Shown piece after piece: positions 3,866-7,417 of a stretch of DNA of 7,417 nucleotides. Under the pieces are notes generated by a model. The model saw nothing but the letters and a program-made list of their open reading frames with translations, was not told where the DNA came from and did not search any database. The DNA is from Holosporales bacterium (GTDB taxonomy: Bacteria > Pseudomonadota > Alphaproteobacteria > UBA3830 > JAIRMZ01): the NCBI GenBank assembly GCA_031273665.1, contig JAISRK010000072.1:1-7417 (forward strand), read 5' to 3'. The translations under genes were made by a program, and so were the position numbers. Position 1 is the stretch's first letter. Each line of letters begins with the position of its first letter.

Positions 3866-4477
3866 ATGTTCGTCCCATTGTTTCACGTGGAACATTCTTA
3901 TAATAAAGACATTGTGTCCGATTCTGCGTATAACAAGCTCAAGCATTTTGTCTCACTCATTACGCGATGGAACACGGCTACCGGCCTTGTTGCGTCGTGT
4001 GTGGATATATGGCAACGACACATCGATGATAGTGTGCAGTTGCTGCCCTACATTGAAGGAAAACACGTTCTGGACGTCGGAAGTGGAGGAGGATTTCCTG
4101 GAATGGTGCTCGCTATTCTCAATCCGCAACGAGAATGGCATCTTGTCGAGTCGAATACACGCAAAGCCATGTTTCTGCAAGAAGTACGCCGTCAATTGGA
4201 GGTGCCCTGTGTTGTACATCATCAACGTGTTGAGACATTAGAGGGATCTTTCGATACAATAACGGCCCGGGCTTTCGCCCCTCTTCCTTCTTTGATGGAG
4301 ATATTATTTGCGAAACTTACTCCCAATGGGCGAGGCGTGTTAGTCAAGGGCAAGAAGCTTTCTCAAGAAATAACAGAAGCGAACAAAAAATGGCGTTTTA
4401 CGCGAGCGCTTTTTCAAAGTCGTACGCACATTGATGGGCGTATCGTTGTGATACAGGATGTGAAGCGCTGCTTATGA
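3866..4477 (+). CDS. rsmG: 16S rRNA m7G527 methyltransferase RsmG
   Basis: RsmG (GidB) uses S-adenosylmethionine to methylate N7 of G527 in 16S rRNA; loss in other bacteria gives low-level streptomycin resistance. The 203-residue product has the family's landmarks in order: RWN near 34-36, RHIDDSVQL at 51-59, the SAM-binding loop VLDVGSGGGFPG at 68-79, an acidic residue after strand 2 (HLVES, 92-96), RAFAPL at 135-140 and VLVKGKK at 158-164. The open frame continues far upstream, antisense to uvrA and across tRNA-Ser. I start at ATG 3866 because AGAAGGA (3853-3859) is placed 6 bases before it and the length then fits the family. Codons 5-10 (LFHVEH) contain the parS site, so the N-terminal sequence is partly dictated by the centromere. 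The stop overlaps parA as ATGA, indicating an operon with translational coupling. The mnmE and mnmG genes that often precede it are absent. Confidence 0.95.
   Translation: MFVPLFHVEHSYNKDIVSDSAYNKLKHFVSLITRWNTATGLVASCVDIWQRHIDDSVQLLPYIEGKHVLDVGSGGGFPGMVLAILNPQREWHLVESNTRKAMFLQEVRRQLEVPCVVHHQRVETLEGSFDTITARAFAPLPSLMEILFAKLTPNGRGVLVKGKKLSQEITEANKKWRFTRALFQSRTHIDGRIVVIQDVKRCL
3879..3894. promoter_or_regulatory. parS: parS centromere site (ParB-binding)
   Basis: TGTTTCACGTGGAACA matches the conserved chromosomal parS consensus TGTTNCACGTGNAACA at every specified position. It is a palindrome except at the two N positions. It lies within codons 5-10 of rsmG, about 580 bp upstream of parA, so ParB can nucleate, slide and spread over its own operon from here. 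I found no second perfect copy in the window. Confidence 0.92.
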
Positions 4478-5265
4478 AGGTCATTGCCATAGCAAATCAA
4501 AAGGGAGGCGTTGGGAAAACAACAACGGCCGTTAATTTGTCTACGGCGTTGGCAGCGGCGCACAAACGCGTTGTTCTGATAGATCTTGATGCTCAGGGAA
4601 ACGCAACACGCAATTTACAAACAACGACGCGTTTCGCGCATAATAGTTACACCGTATTGACTAAACGCAGTACGATGCTCCAGTCGATTATCACAACCTG
4701 CATCCCCCGTTTGTCGTTGTTGCCTGCCTCGCCAGATTTGGCGTCTCTAGACATTGAGTTGGCTAACGAGCAGAAAAGAGAACGCCGCATGCACCATGTC
4801 CTGAGCGATTTTTTATCCACGACCAACGCTCCACCGGACGCTCACCCTTACGATTACGCTTTTATTGACTGTCCTCCAGGTTTGGGGCTCGCTACTTTAA
4901 ACGCTCTTGTCGCCGCACACCTGGTCCTTATTCCAATGCAGTGCGAATTTTTTGCTCTTATGGGGCTTGCTCAGCTGATGCACACCATTCGACGCGTTAA
5001 ATGCAATTTCAACGCAACATTGGATATCATGGGGATTGTTCTCACGATGTTCGACGAACGTCATACGTTATGTCAACGGGTGGCCCAAGATGTGGAGAAA
5101 CATTTCCCCAACATAACGTTCACCACAAAAATCCCGCGCAACATACGTGTGAGCGAGTCCTCTTTGTACAGTAAACCTGTGCTATTGCACGATACACGTT
5201 GCGGTGGTTCGTTGGCCTATATTAAGTTAGCAAAAGAATTTCTAATCAAGGAGAAAATATCATGA
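4474..5265 (+). CDS. parA: Chromosome partitioning ATPase ParA
   Basis: ParA is the Walker-type ATPase that binds DNA non-specifically as an ATP dimer and moves ParB-parS complexes apart. The 263-residue protein begins directly with the deviant Walker A KGGVGKTT (10-17, signature Lys10, P-loop Lys15). It then has the switch I region DLDAQGN (37-43, catalytic Asp39) and Walker B FIDCPP (130-135). There is no N-terminal helix-turn-helix, so it is the short chromosomal (Soj-like) type, not the plasmid type that represses its own operon. VLTMFDERHTLC (189-200), IPRNIRVSES (220-229) and CGGSLAYIKLAKE (243-255) resemble alphaproteobacterial ParA. Met163 occupies a position that is usually Glu in ALEGL; I cannot judge its effect. 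The start overlaps the rsmG stop and the stop overlaps parB, both as ATGA. No strong ribosome site precedes it, so initiation is probably coupled to rsmG. Confidence 0.96.
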   Translation: MKVIAIANQKGGVGKTTTAVNLSTALAAAHKRVVLIDLDAQGNATRNLQTTTRFAHNSYTVLTKRSTMLQSIITTCIPRLSLLPASPDLASLDIELANEQKRERRMHHVLSDFLSTTNAPPDAHPYDYAFIDCPPGLGLATLNALVAAHLVLIPMQCEFFALMGLAQLMHTIRRVKCNFNATLDIMGIVLTMFDERHTLCQRVAQDVEKHFPNITFTTKIPRNIRVSESSLYSKPVLLHDTRCGGSLAYIKLAKEFLIKEKIS

Positions 5266-6077
5266 ACTCGATACAAAAAGGTGGATTGGAGGCCCTTTTG
5301 GGTCCGGATTTGGCAGAGGACAACCAATTAGAGCATATTCCGGTGCGAGACATTACTCCCAATCCTTTTCAACCCAGGCATGTACTCGATGAACAATCGA
5401 TTGCAGAGTTAGCGACGTCCATTAAGACAAATGGCGTCCTGCAACCCATTCTAGTGCGTTACAATCCAGAAGAAAACGGGAAATACCAAATCATCGCTGG
5501 AGAGCGTCGTTGGAGGGCAGCGATGCAGGCACAGCTGGCGGATCTCCCAGCTTTGATCTGTGACTTAGATGATAAACAAAGTCTCGAATATGCACTGTTG
5601 GAAAATGTACAACGAGAGAATTTGAATTGCATCGATGAAGCGGAAGGGTATGCGCGTCTTATTGCGGAATTTGGACATACCCAAGAACATCTTGCGCGTA
5701 TTATTGGGAAAAGTCGCAGCCATATTGCCAACCTTTTGCGTCTTCTGAGCTTGCCCTCCTCTATAAAAGAGCATGTTCGTGCTGGGCGGTTAAGTTTTGG
5801 GCATGCGCGCACTTTAGTGGGACGAGACGATGCTGAAGCAGTAGGAGAGCAAATTGTTAATAAAGCCCTTACGGTCCGACAAGCAGAGAAACAACGTAAG
5901 GCGAAAAGGGCAACGCCAGACAGTGAAACGCTCTCTGAAGCGGCCATTTTAGCAGAGCAGTTAACACAGGCGCTTGGAGTACGAGTACAGGTCAATTTGC
6001 GTCATGAAGGAGGAGTAATTCAACTCCATTTTGGCGATTTACGAGAATTAGAACGTCTGATTGAGCGGCTTAATTAA
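5262..6077 (+). CDS. parB: Chromosome partitioning protein ParB, CTP-dependent clamp
   Basis: ParB binds parS, hydrolyses CTP, closes as a sliding clamp and stimulates ParA. The 271-residue protein has the expected order. A short N-terminal ParA-contact peptide (QKGGLEALLG, 5-14) is followed by the CTP-binding domain from about 26 to 125 with NPFQPR (34-39), GERRWRA (80-86) and ENVQREN (114-120). The helix-turn-helix that reads parS lies at about 138-163 (HLARIIGKSRSHIANLLRLL), followed by linker helices. A lysine- and arginine-rich link (about 207-216) leads to a C-terminal dimerisation domain (about 222-271). The N-terminal peptide is shorter and less basic than the common GLGRGLDALL form. 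ATG at 5262 overlaps the parA stop as ATGA, but parB also has its own strong site, AAGGAG (5248-5253), 8 bases upstream. It is the last gene of the operon. Confidence 0.97.
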   Translation: MNSIQKGGLEALLGPDLAEDNQLEHIPVRDITPNPFQPRHVLDEQSIAELATSIKTNGVLQPILVRYNPEENGKYQIIAGERRWRAAMQAQLADLPALICDLDDKQSLEYALLENVQRENLNCIDEAEGYARLIAEFGHTQEHLARIIGKSRSHIANLLRLLSLPSSIKEHVRAGRLSFGHARTLVGRDDAEAVGEQIVNKALTVRQAEKQRKAKRATPDSETLSEAAILAEQLTQALGVRVQVNLRHEGGVIQLHFGDLRELERLIERLN

Positions 6078-6113
6078 AAAAAAGCGCTCTTTTGATCAAA
6101 GAAAAGCGTCTTT
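6076..6113. terminator. Hairpin after parB, possibly a bidirectional terminator
   Basis: CGCT (6085-6088) pairs with AGCG (6105-6108). The stem continues as TTT/AAA past one bulged C, with G-U pairs at each end and the loop GATCAAA. On the plus strand the tail is only TCTTT (6109-6113). On the minus strand the stem is followed by eight T residues (6083-6076). The better terminator therefore faces transcripts arriving from the right, and it may serve parB only weakly. Confidence 0.45.
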
Positions 6114-6127
6114 GCGGACTGTTCGGG

Positions 6128-6150
6128 GGATTGGGGAGATTTCTCCATCC
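6128..6150. repeat. Small hairpin downstream of parB
   Basis: GGAT (6128-6131) pairs with ATCC (6147-6150), and GGAG (6135-6138) pairs with CTCC (6143-6146) around an ATTT loop, with three bases bulged on the left. It lies 50 bp after the parB stop. There is no T-run, so its role is unclear. Confidence 0.35.
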
Positions 6151-6182
6151 AGCCGCTGAGTATTTACGCAGTGACGCATGGG

Positions 6183-6224
6183 AAAAGAAAGTGAGACTTG
6201 TGCTCTTATCACTTCCTTTCTTTC
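6183..6224 (+). terminator. Possible parAB operon terminator
   Basis: AAGTGA (6189-6194) pairs exactly with TCACTT (6209-6214) over a 14-base loop. Outer A-rich and T-rich flanks can extend the stem imperfectly. A pyrimidine tract CCTTTCTTTC follows on the plus strand. The stem is AT-rich and the loop is long, so this is only a secondary candidate for ending parB transcription. Confidence 0.22.
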
Positions 6225-6350
6225 GCTCTAATGTCGTTTCCAAGTCTTTCTGCGCTTAACAAGAGAGAACGTTAAATACAGGCGCATTATGGAGTATCGA
6301 AAACTTTTGCAGATCTTCCAATGATATCTTTCTTAACATCGGTATCAGTA

Positions 6351-6372
6351 AAAGTTGTTGTTTCTCAACTTT
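6351..6372. repeat. Inverted repeat AAAGTTG/CAACTTT
   Basis: AAAGTTG (6351-6357) and CAACTTT (6366-6372) form a perfect 7-bp stem with the loop TTGTTTCT. The arms are in the opposite order (GTTG first, CAAC second) to the dyads that follow, so I do not count it as a copy of that motif. Confidence 0.5.
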
Positions 6373-6398
6373 CCGAGAGAGATCGGGGGGCAGTTTAG

Positions 6399-6466
6399 CA
6401 TTCTCATTGGAGCAATTCGACAGAGCGATACAACCTCAAGTTGTATAAATTCGGGAGTTGAGAATG
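6399..6466. repeat. Dyad motif copy 1 within a 68-bp nested inverted repeat
   Basis: The 15-bp core ACAACCTCAAGTTGT lies at 6430-6444. Its pairing extends to ATACAAC/GTTGTAT (6428-6434 with 6440-6446). Outside it, CATTCTCA (6399-6406) is the exact reverse complement of TGAGAATG (6459-6466), with AATT pairing between. This is the best-formed of the nested repeats in the array. Confidence 0.65.
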
Positions 6467-6568
6467 TAAAAATGGAAGTTTTCTCCTCCGTTTAACCTCT
6501 TTTTATCGCTTATCCCGCCTTCCTTTTCATTCAATCATTTTTATCTTGCTTTTTCTTCGAATTATCAG

Positions 6569-6627
6569 ATAGTTTAAGAGGAGAACGCGGCGATGCAACT
6601 AGAAATTGTAGCCCACAAACTGTAGTT
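6569..6627. repeat. Dyad motif copy 2
   Basis: The core GCAACTAGAAATTGT lies at 6595-6609. It has the invariant CAA and TTG but weaker internal pairing than other copies. ATAGTTT (6569-6575) can pair with AAACTGT (6617-6623, one G-U). An alternative fold pairs AACTA (6597-6601) with TAGTT (6623-6627) and TTGT with ACAA. A degenerate further copy, ACAAACTGTAGTTCA, follows at 6615-6629. Confidence 0.45.
6593..6625 (+). other. Possible leader-peptide-sized ORF or start of a decayed gene
   Basis: AGGAG (6579-6583) is followed after 9 bases by ATG and ten codons (MQLEIVAHKL) ending in TAG. The ATG region overlaps dyad copy 2. The same SD-AACGC-ATG-CAACT arrangement recurs at 7340-7357, where the frame stays open to the window edge. 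This could be a relic of a duplicated gene start, a leader peptide or chance. Confidence 0.18.
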
Positions 6628-6798
6628 CACGAGAACTCTGAACCTCTCCATTAAAAAAATCGATCAAATGGAGTTATAGAGGGCAAGACTGTTAAAATTT
6701 CCATAATTTAGGAAAACGTTGGTACAGAATCCTCTGGCGAGCTCACAATAAAGCGAAAAAACGCCGATTATGAGGAGTTTTTTTCTTATCGACATGAG

Positions 6799-6816
6799 TA
6801 TCTTGTGTACAAGATA
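6799..6816. repeat. 18-bp palindrome TATCTTGT-GT-ACAAGATA
   Basis: Two perfect 8-bp arms are separated by two bases. It is typical in size for the operator of a dimeric DNA-binding protein. It is not a copy of the 15-bp motif. It lies 31 bp before dyad copy 3, and a near-DnaA-box TTATCGACA sits at 6786-6794. Confidence 0.55.
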
Positions 6817-6825
6817 TTAGAAATA

Positions 6826-6875
6826 GATTTTCTTTTCATATAGAACTACAACCATAGGTTGAATAACGCGAAATC
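6826..6875. repeat. Dyad motif copy 3
   Basis: The core ACAACCATAGGTTGA lies at 6848-6862, with a 5-bp CAACC/GGTTG stem and a three-base loop ATA. Possible outer arms are GATTTT (6826-6831) with GAAATC (6870-6875), one pair being G-U. A direct repeat TAGAAATAGAT flanks it at 6818-6828 and 6883-6893. Confidence 0.55.
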
Positions 6876-6939
6876 AATGAACATAGAAATAGATATTCCA
6901 AGATCAACCTAATCCTCTCATCCTTGCTCTGAGCTGGCA

Positions 6940-7002
6940 AACGAGGATCTCAGTGTGTTATATTGAAAACAACTATAGCTTGTATTTTAAGGGGGCCTCG
7001 TT
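6940..7002. repeat. Dyad motif copy 4 within a 63-bp nested inverted repeat
   Basis: The core ACAACTATAGCTTGT lies at 6969-6983. AAA/TTT pairing extends the ACAA/TTGT stem past one bulged A. The outer arms AACGAGG (6940-6946) and CCTCGTT (6996-7002) are exact reverse complements. Distances from the core to the outer arms (22 left, 12 right) are close to those of copy 1 (23 and 14), although the arm sequences are unrelated. Confidence 0.6.
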
Positions 7003-7086
7003 CTTTCTACCAGAAAAGCAGTCGAAGGTAAAAGGCACATTTTCTCGTTAACTCAGAGGTCCCGATAAGCCTTTCACCATTCCCAA

Positions 7087-7154
7087 CGCCTCTCCACGTT
7101 CTTATCAATGCAGTAAGACAACCGTGGGTTGCGTGACATTGTGTAAACCAGGCG
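7087..7154. repeat. Dyad motif copy 5 within a 68-bp nested inverted repeat
   Basis: The core ACAACCGTGGGTTGC lies at 7118-7132, with a CAACC/GGTTG stem and the loop GTG. Middle arms CAATG (7106-7110) and CATTG (7137-7141) pair exactly, GTT/AAC pair further out, and CGCCT (7087-7091) pairs with AGGCG (7150-7154). Confidence 0.55.
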
Positions 7155-7271
7155 GATGCGCACAAAACAGATATTCTATCGCTTAGTGCAGCTCTTCCTT
7201 CTTTTATTCGGCTTCTTTGACGTCCTCTTTATGGGGCATTCAGGCGCTGATTTAAGGGAGGGCAGAGGGCT

Positions 7272-7299
7272 GAAAGTACAATCACAGGTTGTATCTTTT
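7272..7299. repeat. Dyad motif copy 6, a 12-bp hairpin
   Basis: The core ACAATCACAGGTTGT lies at 7278-7292. TACAATC (7277-7283) pairs with GGTTGTA (7287-7293) over an ACA loop with one G-U pair. GAAAG (7272-7276) pairs with CTTTT (7295-7299) past one bulged T. This is the longest continuous stem of the array. Note that the C5-G11 pair of other copies is a T-G pair here. Confidence 0.55.
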
Positions 7300-7349
7300 G
7301 AGGAATAGCAGATTATTTCGCTGAAACGGTTTGTTGGAAGGGGAACGCA

Positions 7350-7417
7350 ATGCAACTTGCGGTTGTGCTTTACGCTACACCTGGAAACTCTGGCTCTAAG
7401 CACTCCCGAGGCGCTGG
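7350..7417 (+). CDS. Possible start of an unknown protein, cut by the right edge
   Basis: ATG at 7350 is preceded by GGAAGGGG with 6 bases between (AACGCA), a good ribosome binding site. The frame is open for 22 codons (MQLAVVLYATPGNSGSKHSR then GA) up to the window end. I do not recognise the protein. A short hydrophobic start (LAVVLYA) is visible but cannot be called a signal peptide. It may be chance, or the true start of the next gene after the palindrome array. It shares its start context with the ten-codon frame at 6593. Confidence 0.25.
   Translation, partial: MQLAVVLYATPGNSGSKHSRGA
7352..7366. repeat. Dyad motif copy 7
   Basis: The core GCAACTTGCGGTTGT has a CAAC/GTTG stem and a terminal G-U pair. 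It overlaps the first codons of a possible CDS at 7350 and matches copy 2 in its flanks. The window ends too soon to test for outer arms. Confidence 0.45.

Follow-up and report, generated by a model that had tools for sequence, protein, structure and literature searches.

The seven dyads that lie downstream of parB on this contig are very probably operators of the genome's own PraR-family repressor, as judged from their sequence. Similar dyads recur in repeated intergenic DNA elsewhere in the assembly, and we lean slightly toward the view that the predicted PraR operators in these repeats are promoter-less docking sites, which would titrate the repressor away from a few real promoters. The titration step is the least certain part of this reading and is put forward tentatively.

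The dyads downstream of parB

The window, that is, the whole stretch of DNA analyzed, is a complete contig of 7,417 nucleotides (C13) from a 517 kb assembly (G000) that is 59% complete. The organism apparently belongs to the Holosporales, which are relatives of protist symbionts; its ParB most resembles proteins labelled "Holosporales bacterium", with 79% identity to one of them. The genes in the window run in the order uvrA, tRNA-Ser, rsmG (GidB), parA, and parB, and the DNA that follows is non-coding to the contig end (Table 1). Read as its reverse complement, the end of contig C75 is identical to the last 119 bp of the window, which makes it probable that the array continues for ∼1 kb towards a convergent PPIase gene. 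Should the two contigs really join at this overlap, the parB array would span ∼2.4 kb and contain 11 dyads (at most one mismatch) between the 3' ends of the convergent parB and PPIase genes. Long purine-rich (or pyrimidine-rich) non-coding stretches were also noticed by eye, at 260-560 of the window and at L018:2000-2140; they adjoin genes and contain no dyads.

Table 1. Position of parB, of the array region, and of the predicted operators in the window
Feature	Sequence	Position	Strand	Remark
parB		5262..6077	+	stop codon forms the left edge of the array
Non-coding array region downstream of parB		6078..7417	.	holds the seven dyads
Predicted PraR operator 1	ACAACCTCAAGTTGT	6430..6444	.	CAAC-N5-GTTG exact
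Predicted PraR operator 2	GCAACTAGAAATTGT	6595..6609	.	core with one mismatch
Predicted PraR operator 3	ACAACCATAGGTTGA	6848..6862	.	core exact; flank homologous to the C29 site at 273
Predicted PraR operator 4	ACAACTATAGCTTGT	6969..6983	.	core with one mismatch
Predicted PraR operator 5	ACAACCGTGGGTTGC	7118..7132	.	core exact
Predicted PraR operator 6	ACAATCACAGGTTGT	7278..7292	.	core with one mismatch; repeat module common to C75 and C63
Predicted PraR operator 7	GCAACTTGCGGTTGT	7352..7366	.	core exact; within the 119-bp overlap with contig C75

An earlier note on this DNA had claimed seven ungapped copies of the dyad, and all seven are found at the positions listed in Table 1. A recount bears out the invariant CAA and TTG in seven of seven copies and the C at position 5 in six, and gives successive copy-to-copy distances of 165, 253, 121, 149, 160, and 74 bp. 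The rarity by chance that the note had estimated by hand also holds, as RCAACYNNNRGTTGY (at most one mismatch) occurs seven times in 6078-7417, three of them exact, while in 1000 dinucleotide shuffles the count averages 0.024 and never exceeds 1. No dyad occurs in the second non-coding stretch (48-906), as had been stated. CAAC-N5-GTTG is exact in four of the window sites and has one core mismatch in the remaining three, and no exact CAAC...GTTG occurs in 6078-7417 at any spacing from 0 to 20 except N5. A further one-mismatch CAAC-N5-GTTG, at 7323, would be the eighth but is left out of the count because it violates the Y...R rule. Sigma-70-type promoter signals in 6000-7417 number 2 against a shuffle mean of 2.1, and no helical phasing of the dyad distances in the assembly is seen by eye. 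The dyads do not form an iteron array, since they are symmetric, irregularly spaced (74-253 bp), and present at several loci.

The PraR consensus and a PraR-like protein

The earlier note knew of no named element with this consensus, but the dyad is that of PraR, CAAC-N5-GTTG. This sequence was the outcome of SELEX with PraR from R. leguminosarum and with PraR from A. caulinodans (PMC5527310), and the consensus is cited again in PMC5748706. The literature also describes a 2014 Rhizobium study in which TTGCAA, and not CAAC-N5-GTTG, was derived from PraR-bound promoters (PMC4149787), an A. caulinodans reb promoter that has only sites with two to three mismatches (PMC5527310), and a Caulobacter ChIP motif in which one half-site is weak. 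According to an excerpt of PMC10688885, the praR/cdxA neighborhood is conserved across Alphaproteobacteria, with the neighborhood genes unnamed there; family regulators are described as controlling R-bodies, adhesins, and symbiosis in better-known Alphaproteobacteria. Among the matches listed for PraR binding, available in part, there is no PraR-binding report for the Holosporales lineage.

A PraR-like XRE protein is matched in 35 of the 41 genomes searched. At E ≤ 1e-8 there is one match in G000 (on contig C44) and one in the same-genus genome G001, beside lnt in both. The protein is 41% identical to a Rhizobium etli family member, and the HTH stretch TFQQVQKYE is invariant in 12 aligned family proteins, a chosen set that includes the Rhizobium etli and Azospirillum members and omits the SELEX-tested proteins. 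RebB (R-body) genes, considered as a target, gave no match in 8 genomes, but this carries no weight because the control genomes were equally silent.

The praR-like gene itself has a dyad in front of it. On C44 the dyad at 6182 lies ∼65 bp upstream of the gene, and two dyads lie upstream of the G001 counterpart. Within 300 bp upstream of praR, an exact-core dyad with Y...R is found in G000, G001, G003, and G010, the last of these in another family. When one mismatch is allowed, 10 of 30 loci including that of G000 have an upstream dyad (4 of 5 in family f1, 3 of 3 in f2, and 3 of 22 in f3), and it is absent at 19 of the 22 f3 loci and in G004 (f1); for a praR locus whose dyad has one mismatch, a dyad as good arises in 1.5-3% of 200 mononucleotide shuffles. 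Pairs 29 bp apart occur upstream of praR in three genomes, with both dyads exact in G001 and G003 and one exact and one degenerate in G000.

Repeat arrays across the assembly

The earlier note had proposed that the density of the motif after parB be compared with that of the whole genome. The clustering is indeed strong, but it extends to several intergenic arrays, of which the parB region is only one. There are 33 places in G000 that match RCAACYNNNRGTTGT with at most one mismatch, 32 of them distinct because C13 7352 and C75 8062 share the 119-bp overlap. Intergenic repeats that total ∼4 kb and are distributed over six contigs (C5, C13, C29, C63, C75, and C88) hold 22 of the 32. The dyads outside the arrays are the one upstream of praR, one at C62 8027, where the surrounding stretch is weakly similar to the array repeats, and eight scattered ones, at least one of which is inside an ORF (C78, in uvrB). 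ORF-internal dyads (C78; C10 and C95 of G001; C46 of G003) are left out of the array-site count.

The array segments of G000 are located at contig ends, have diverged repeat modules in common, and adjoin flgE-like, OmpA-family (pal-like), miaB-like, and other genes. Some array sites could be ordinary operators, since the C63 array lies upstream of the miaB-like gene and the C88 array precedes a gene for a glycosyltransferase. By eye, the G000 dyads show no constant distance to any element downstream. Beside the arrays, the 3' end of the flgE-like gene is copied with 84-90% identity (L010:160-429, L010:3732-4000, L012:3-77, and L012:333-407). The miaB-like ORF holds a 79-bp direct repeat (97.5%) at L016:2157-2235 and 2329-2407.

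Dyads in related genomes

The DNA after parB in relatives, which the earlier note had suggested aligning, speaks partly against a conserved array at this place. In G003 and G004, of the same family, parB is followed by 1.6-1.7 kb of short-ORF DNA with no dyad at one mismatch or fewer, nor does the 1.1 kb examined downstream of parB in G002 contain one; the G001 contig ends 90 bp past parB, so the comparison covers G002-G004. Similarity at the DNA level between the G000 arrays and either the G001 arrays or G002-G004 was not found with three queries.

The repeats of G001 belong to a separate family, unrelated to that of G000, which occupies 13 places on 12 contigs. Its module M1 carries one dyad in 7 copies, with an eighth copy degenerate, and of the 5 full-length copies of module M3, 4 carry a pair of dyads with a 32-bp spacing. 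The exact core CAACYNNNRGTTG, when counted against a reversed-pattern control, occurs 15 vs 3 times in G000 (14 distinct) and 13 vs 3 in G001, as compared with 5 vs 2 in G003 (two of the five being the praR pair), 8 vs 10 in G002, 1 vs 2 in G004, and 3 vs 5, 2 vs 3, and 4 vs 5 in three f2 genomes. Clear enrichment of the dyad is limited to one genus (G000 and G001) among the 8 genomes compared.

Several further elements were observed in G001. The intergenic arrays contain a double-hairpin module of ∼92 bp, M2, in 18 near-full copies (e.g., L055:3406-3502, L062:123-228, and L063:33-136), with compensatory changes between copies in its long stem and no Rfam match in the loci searched. Next to an array, at L052:432-588 and 590-745, the 3' end of a gene that looks typA-like by eye is duplicated in tandem (157 bp, 98.7%). 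A tmRNA match under the gathering score (39.2 of 47 bits, E 2.4e-12) at L062:2047-2122, whose 76 bases touch both ends of the model, is perhaps a reduced or split tmRNA.

A second putative PraR target is seen in G001 and G003, which represent two genera. In both, a gene for a predicted secreted protein of ∼570 aa (L066:188-1897 and L107:1-1704) has a pair of dyads in front of it at a distance of exactly 32 bp; the core is exact in one dyad of the pair and has one mismatch in the other. The two proteins are 46% identical and have no Pfam match; a signal peptide is likely as judged by eye, and the G003 stretch ends within the frame. The gene is found in 2 of 41 genomes and was not found in G000. 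Because the 32-bp spacing is that of the M3 modules, in a different sequence, the dyad pairs in the repeats have the geometry of what is likely a real promoter. Dyads are thus located upstream of praR and, in G001 and G003, of the secreted-protein gene; a promoter location is not apparent for the C13/C75 array.

Protein site or hairpin

The earlier note had offered two readings of the dyad, binding sites of a dimeric protein or hairpin RNAs, which differ in whether the two arms should covary. For the 39 array dyads of G000 and G001, copies of which are partly related, agreement between half-sites at the three most variable positions is 24, 25, and 17, vs 23.5, 27.3, and 21.1 expected from independence. 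The outcome is the same with 44 sites (25 vs 25.5, 28 vs 30.7, and 22 vs 23.6), a set that mixes in the praR-promoter dyad, the uvrB ORF dyad, the C62 dyad, and the secreted-gene pair. As a positive control, the M2 long stem in 17 copies shows agreement of 17 vs 8.8, 14 vs 8.7, and 17 vs 9.2. Within M2, covariation is absent from the short predicted 5' helix (7 vs 7.4 and 8 vs 9.1) and, in the second hairpin, from the outermost loop pair (12 vs 12.4). As the half-sites vary independently, the protein most likely recognizes the dyad as double-stranded DNA, with one half per subunit.

The dyads also appear to be retained while the surrounding DNA changes. In 21 homologous pairs of array segments, the 8 core bases are identical at 153 of 168 positions (91%) and the flanks at 1228 of 1698 (72%); these pairs are non-independent and were picked since one copy is a dyad, and local alignment may favor the site. 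The 10 pairs from alignments of at least 120 columns give 72 of 80 for the core and 804 of 1141 for the flanks. We count this as support for selection on the dyads, whose cores would be kept as the repeats drift.

Taken with the SELEX consensus match and the matching-family gene in the genome, half-site independence and conserved cores support the dimeric-protein reading. The hairpin reading is contradicted by dyad arms that do not covary. We therefore rule out a hairpin or RNA element on the basis of half-site independence, with its positive control, and of the lack of any Rfam family at gathering score in the arrays (all loci searched except L060, L061, and L066). One chance-level Rfam match, to snoR125, overlaps the edge of the C75 region.

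Proposed operators and titration, and competing explanations

In the mechanism we propose, a PraR dimer would read one RCAACY half per subunit on each dyad, and praR would repress itself. The C13/C75 array is apparently located between gene ends and has no promoter signal above chance, so its sites would compete for PraR and not control a neighbor. Some two dozen array sites in an assembly that is 59% complete stand against two praR dyads, one of them degenerate, which makes titration the simplest role; with the array sites present, more PraR would be required before its targets are shut. The presence of the dyads in the repeats could also have a cause other than titration. Among the matches listed for PraR binding, Holosporales intergenic repeats, and decoy or titration arrays, mostly from outside subscription journals and available in part, there is no description of PraR operators in repeat arrays.

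Two other explanations are each improbable in our estimate. The arrays may be regulatory regions of unrecognized short transcripts (small RNAs or peptides) that are repressed by PraR, in which case the dyads would be ordinary promoter operators. The known family sites act in promoters, the C63 and C88 arrays do lie upstream of genes, and the compensatory changes in the M2 hairpins suggest that a structured nucleic acid is made from the repeats. However, promoter-like hits in the window array, scored for the sigma-70 type only, are at the shuffle mean, the arrays searched yield no Rfam family, and no common spacing from dyad to downstream element is seen by eye in G000.

We would place equally little weight on the idea that the dyads were carried along as passengers when selfish intergenic repeats multiplied from a copy with an operator, and that they have no role in the cell or one in silencing the repeat itself. 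The diverged modules common to the arrays, the different repeat family of the same-genus G001 with its wide distribution, and the flgE-like and typA-like gene 3' ends duplicated beside arrays all fit such a spread. It is harder to reconcile with cores conserved above their flanks, with the presence of the dyad in two unrelated repeat families, and with a search of 5 genomes in which none of the 5 had a Y1 transposase of the REP type.

That the dyads are a chromosome-organizing or partition site beside parAB (centromere-like or nucleoid binding) is highly improbable: one array is directly downstream of parB, but the same dyads occur at several other loci, are missing after parB in the G002-G004 stretches examined, and match the consensus of another protein, PraR, while ParB's likely parS is elsewhere in the window. 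The only TGTTNCACGTGRAACA-like match in the window, TGTTTCACGTGGAACA at 3879-3894, is in the 5' part of rsmG, outside the array, and is this likely parS; the identity of the dyads as parS or centromere is ruled out on this ground, and their place next to the centromere locus, mentioned in the earlier note, is incidental.

Returning to PraR operators that would act as a sink, a genus-wide version is possible but doubtful. Intergenic repeats would have spread and kept dozens of predicted PraR operators outside promoters, and repeat copy number would set how much of a symbiosis-type repressor it takes to shut the repressor's own gene and the secreted-protein gene. If true, the copy number of non-coding repeats in small-genome Holosporales would tune a repressor that is linked elsewhere to host interaction, a role that is testable, and promoter-distant operator copies that soak up a repressor would be an unusual use of non-coding DNA in gene control. 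The 29- and 32-bp operator pairs offer a regulon probe for PraR targets in uncultured symbionts, and one candidate has already been found, the predicted secreted protein without a Pfam match.

Comparison with known systems

The PraR / PhrR / CdxA operator of R. leguminosarum and A. caulinodans (PMC5527310) resembles the dyads in core and spacing, and the genome has both a family gene and a dyad upstream of praR. The known sites are in promoters, whereas those described here are mostly in repeated non-coding arrays, with the C13/C75 array apparently between convergent gene ends, and the dyad here is extended to RCAACYNNNRGTTGY.

REP and REPIN elements are dispersed intergenic palindromes in repeat arrays, and the dyads share this dispersed intergenic placement. 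Unlike REP or REPIN, the dyad arms do not covary, and a Y1 (RAYT) transposase is found in 0 of 5 genomes while 5 of 14 control genomes are positive, which rules out this identity. Loci of the datA type consist of DnaA boxes off the origin, a cluster of sites proposed to hold the regulator. The arrays are comparable in that binding sites would be clustered away from the regulated promoters to titrate a regulator, but here the protein is a different one and the sites are borne by repeats at many loci.
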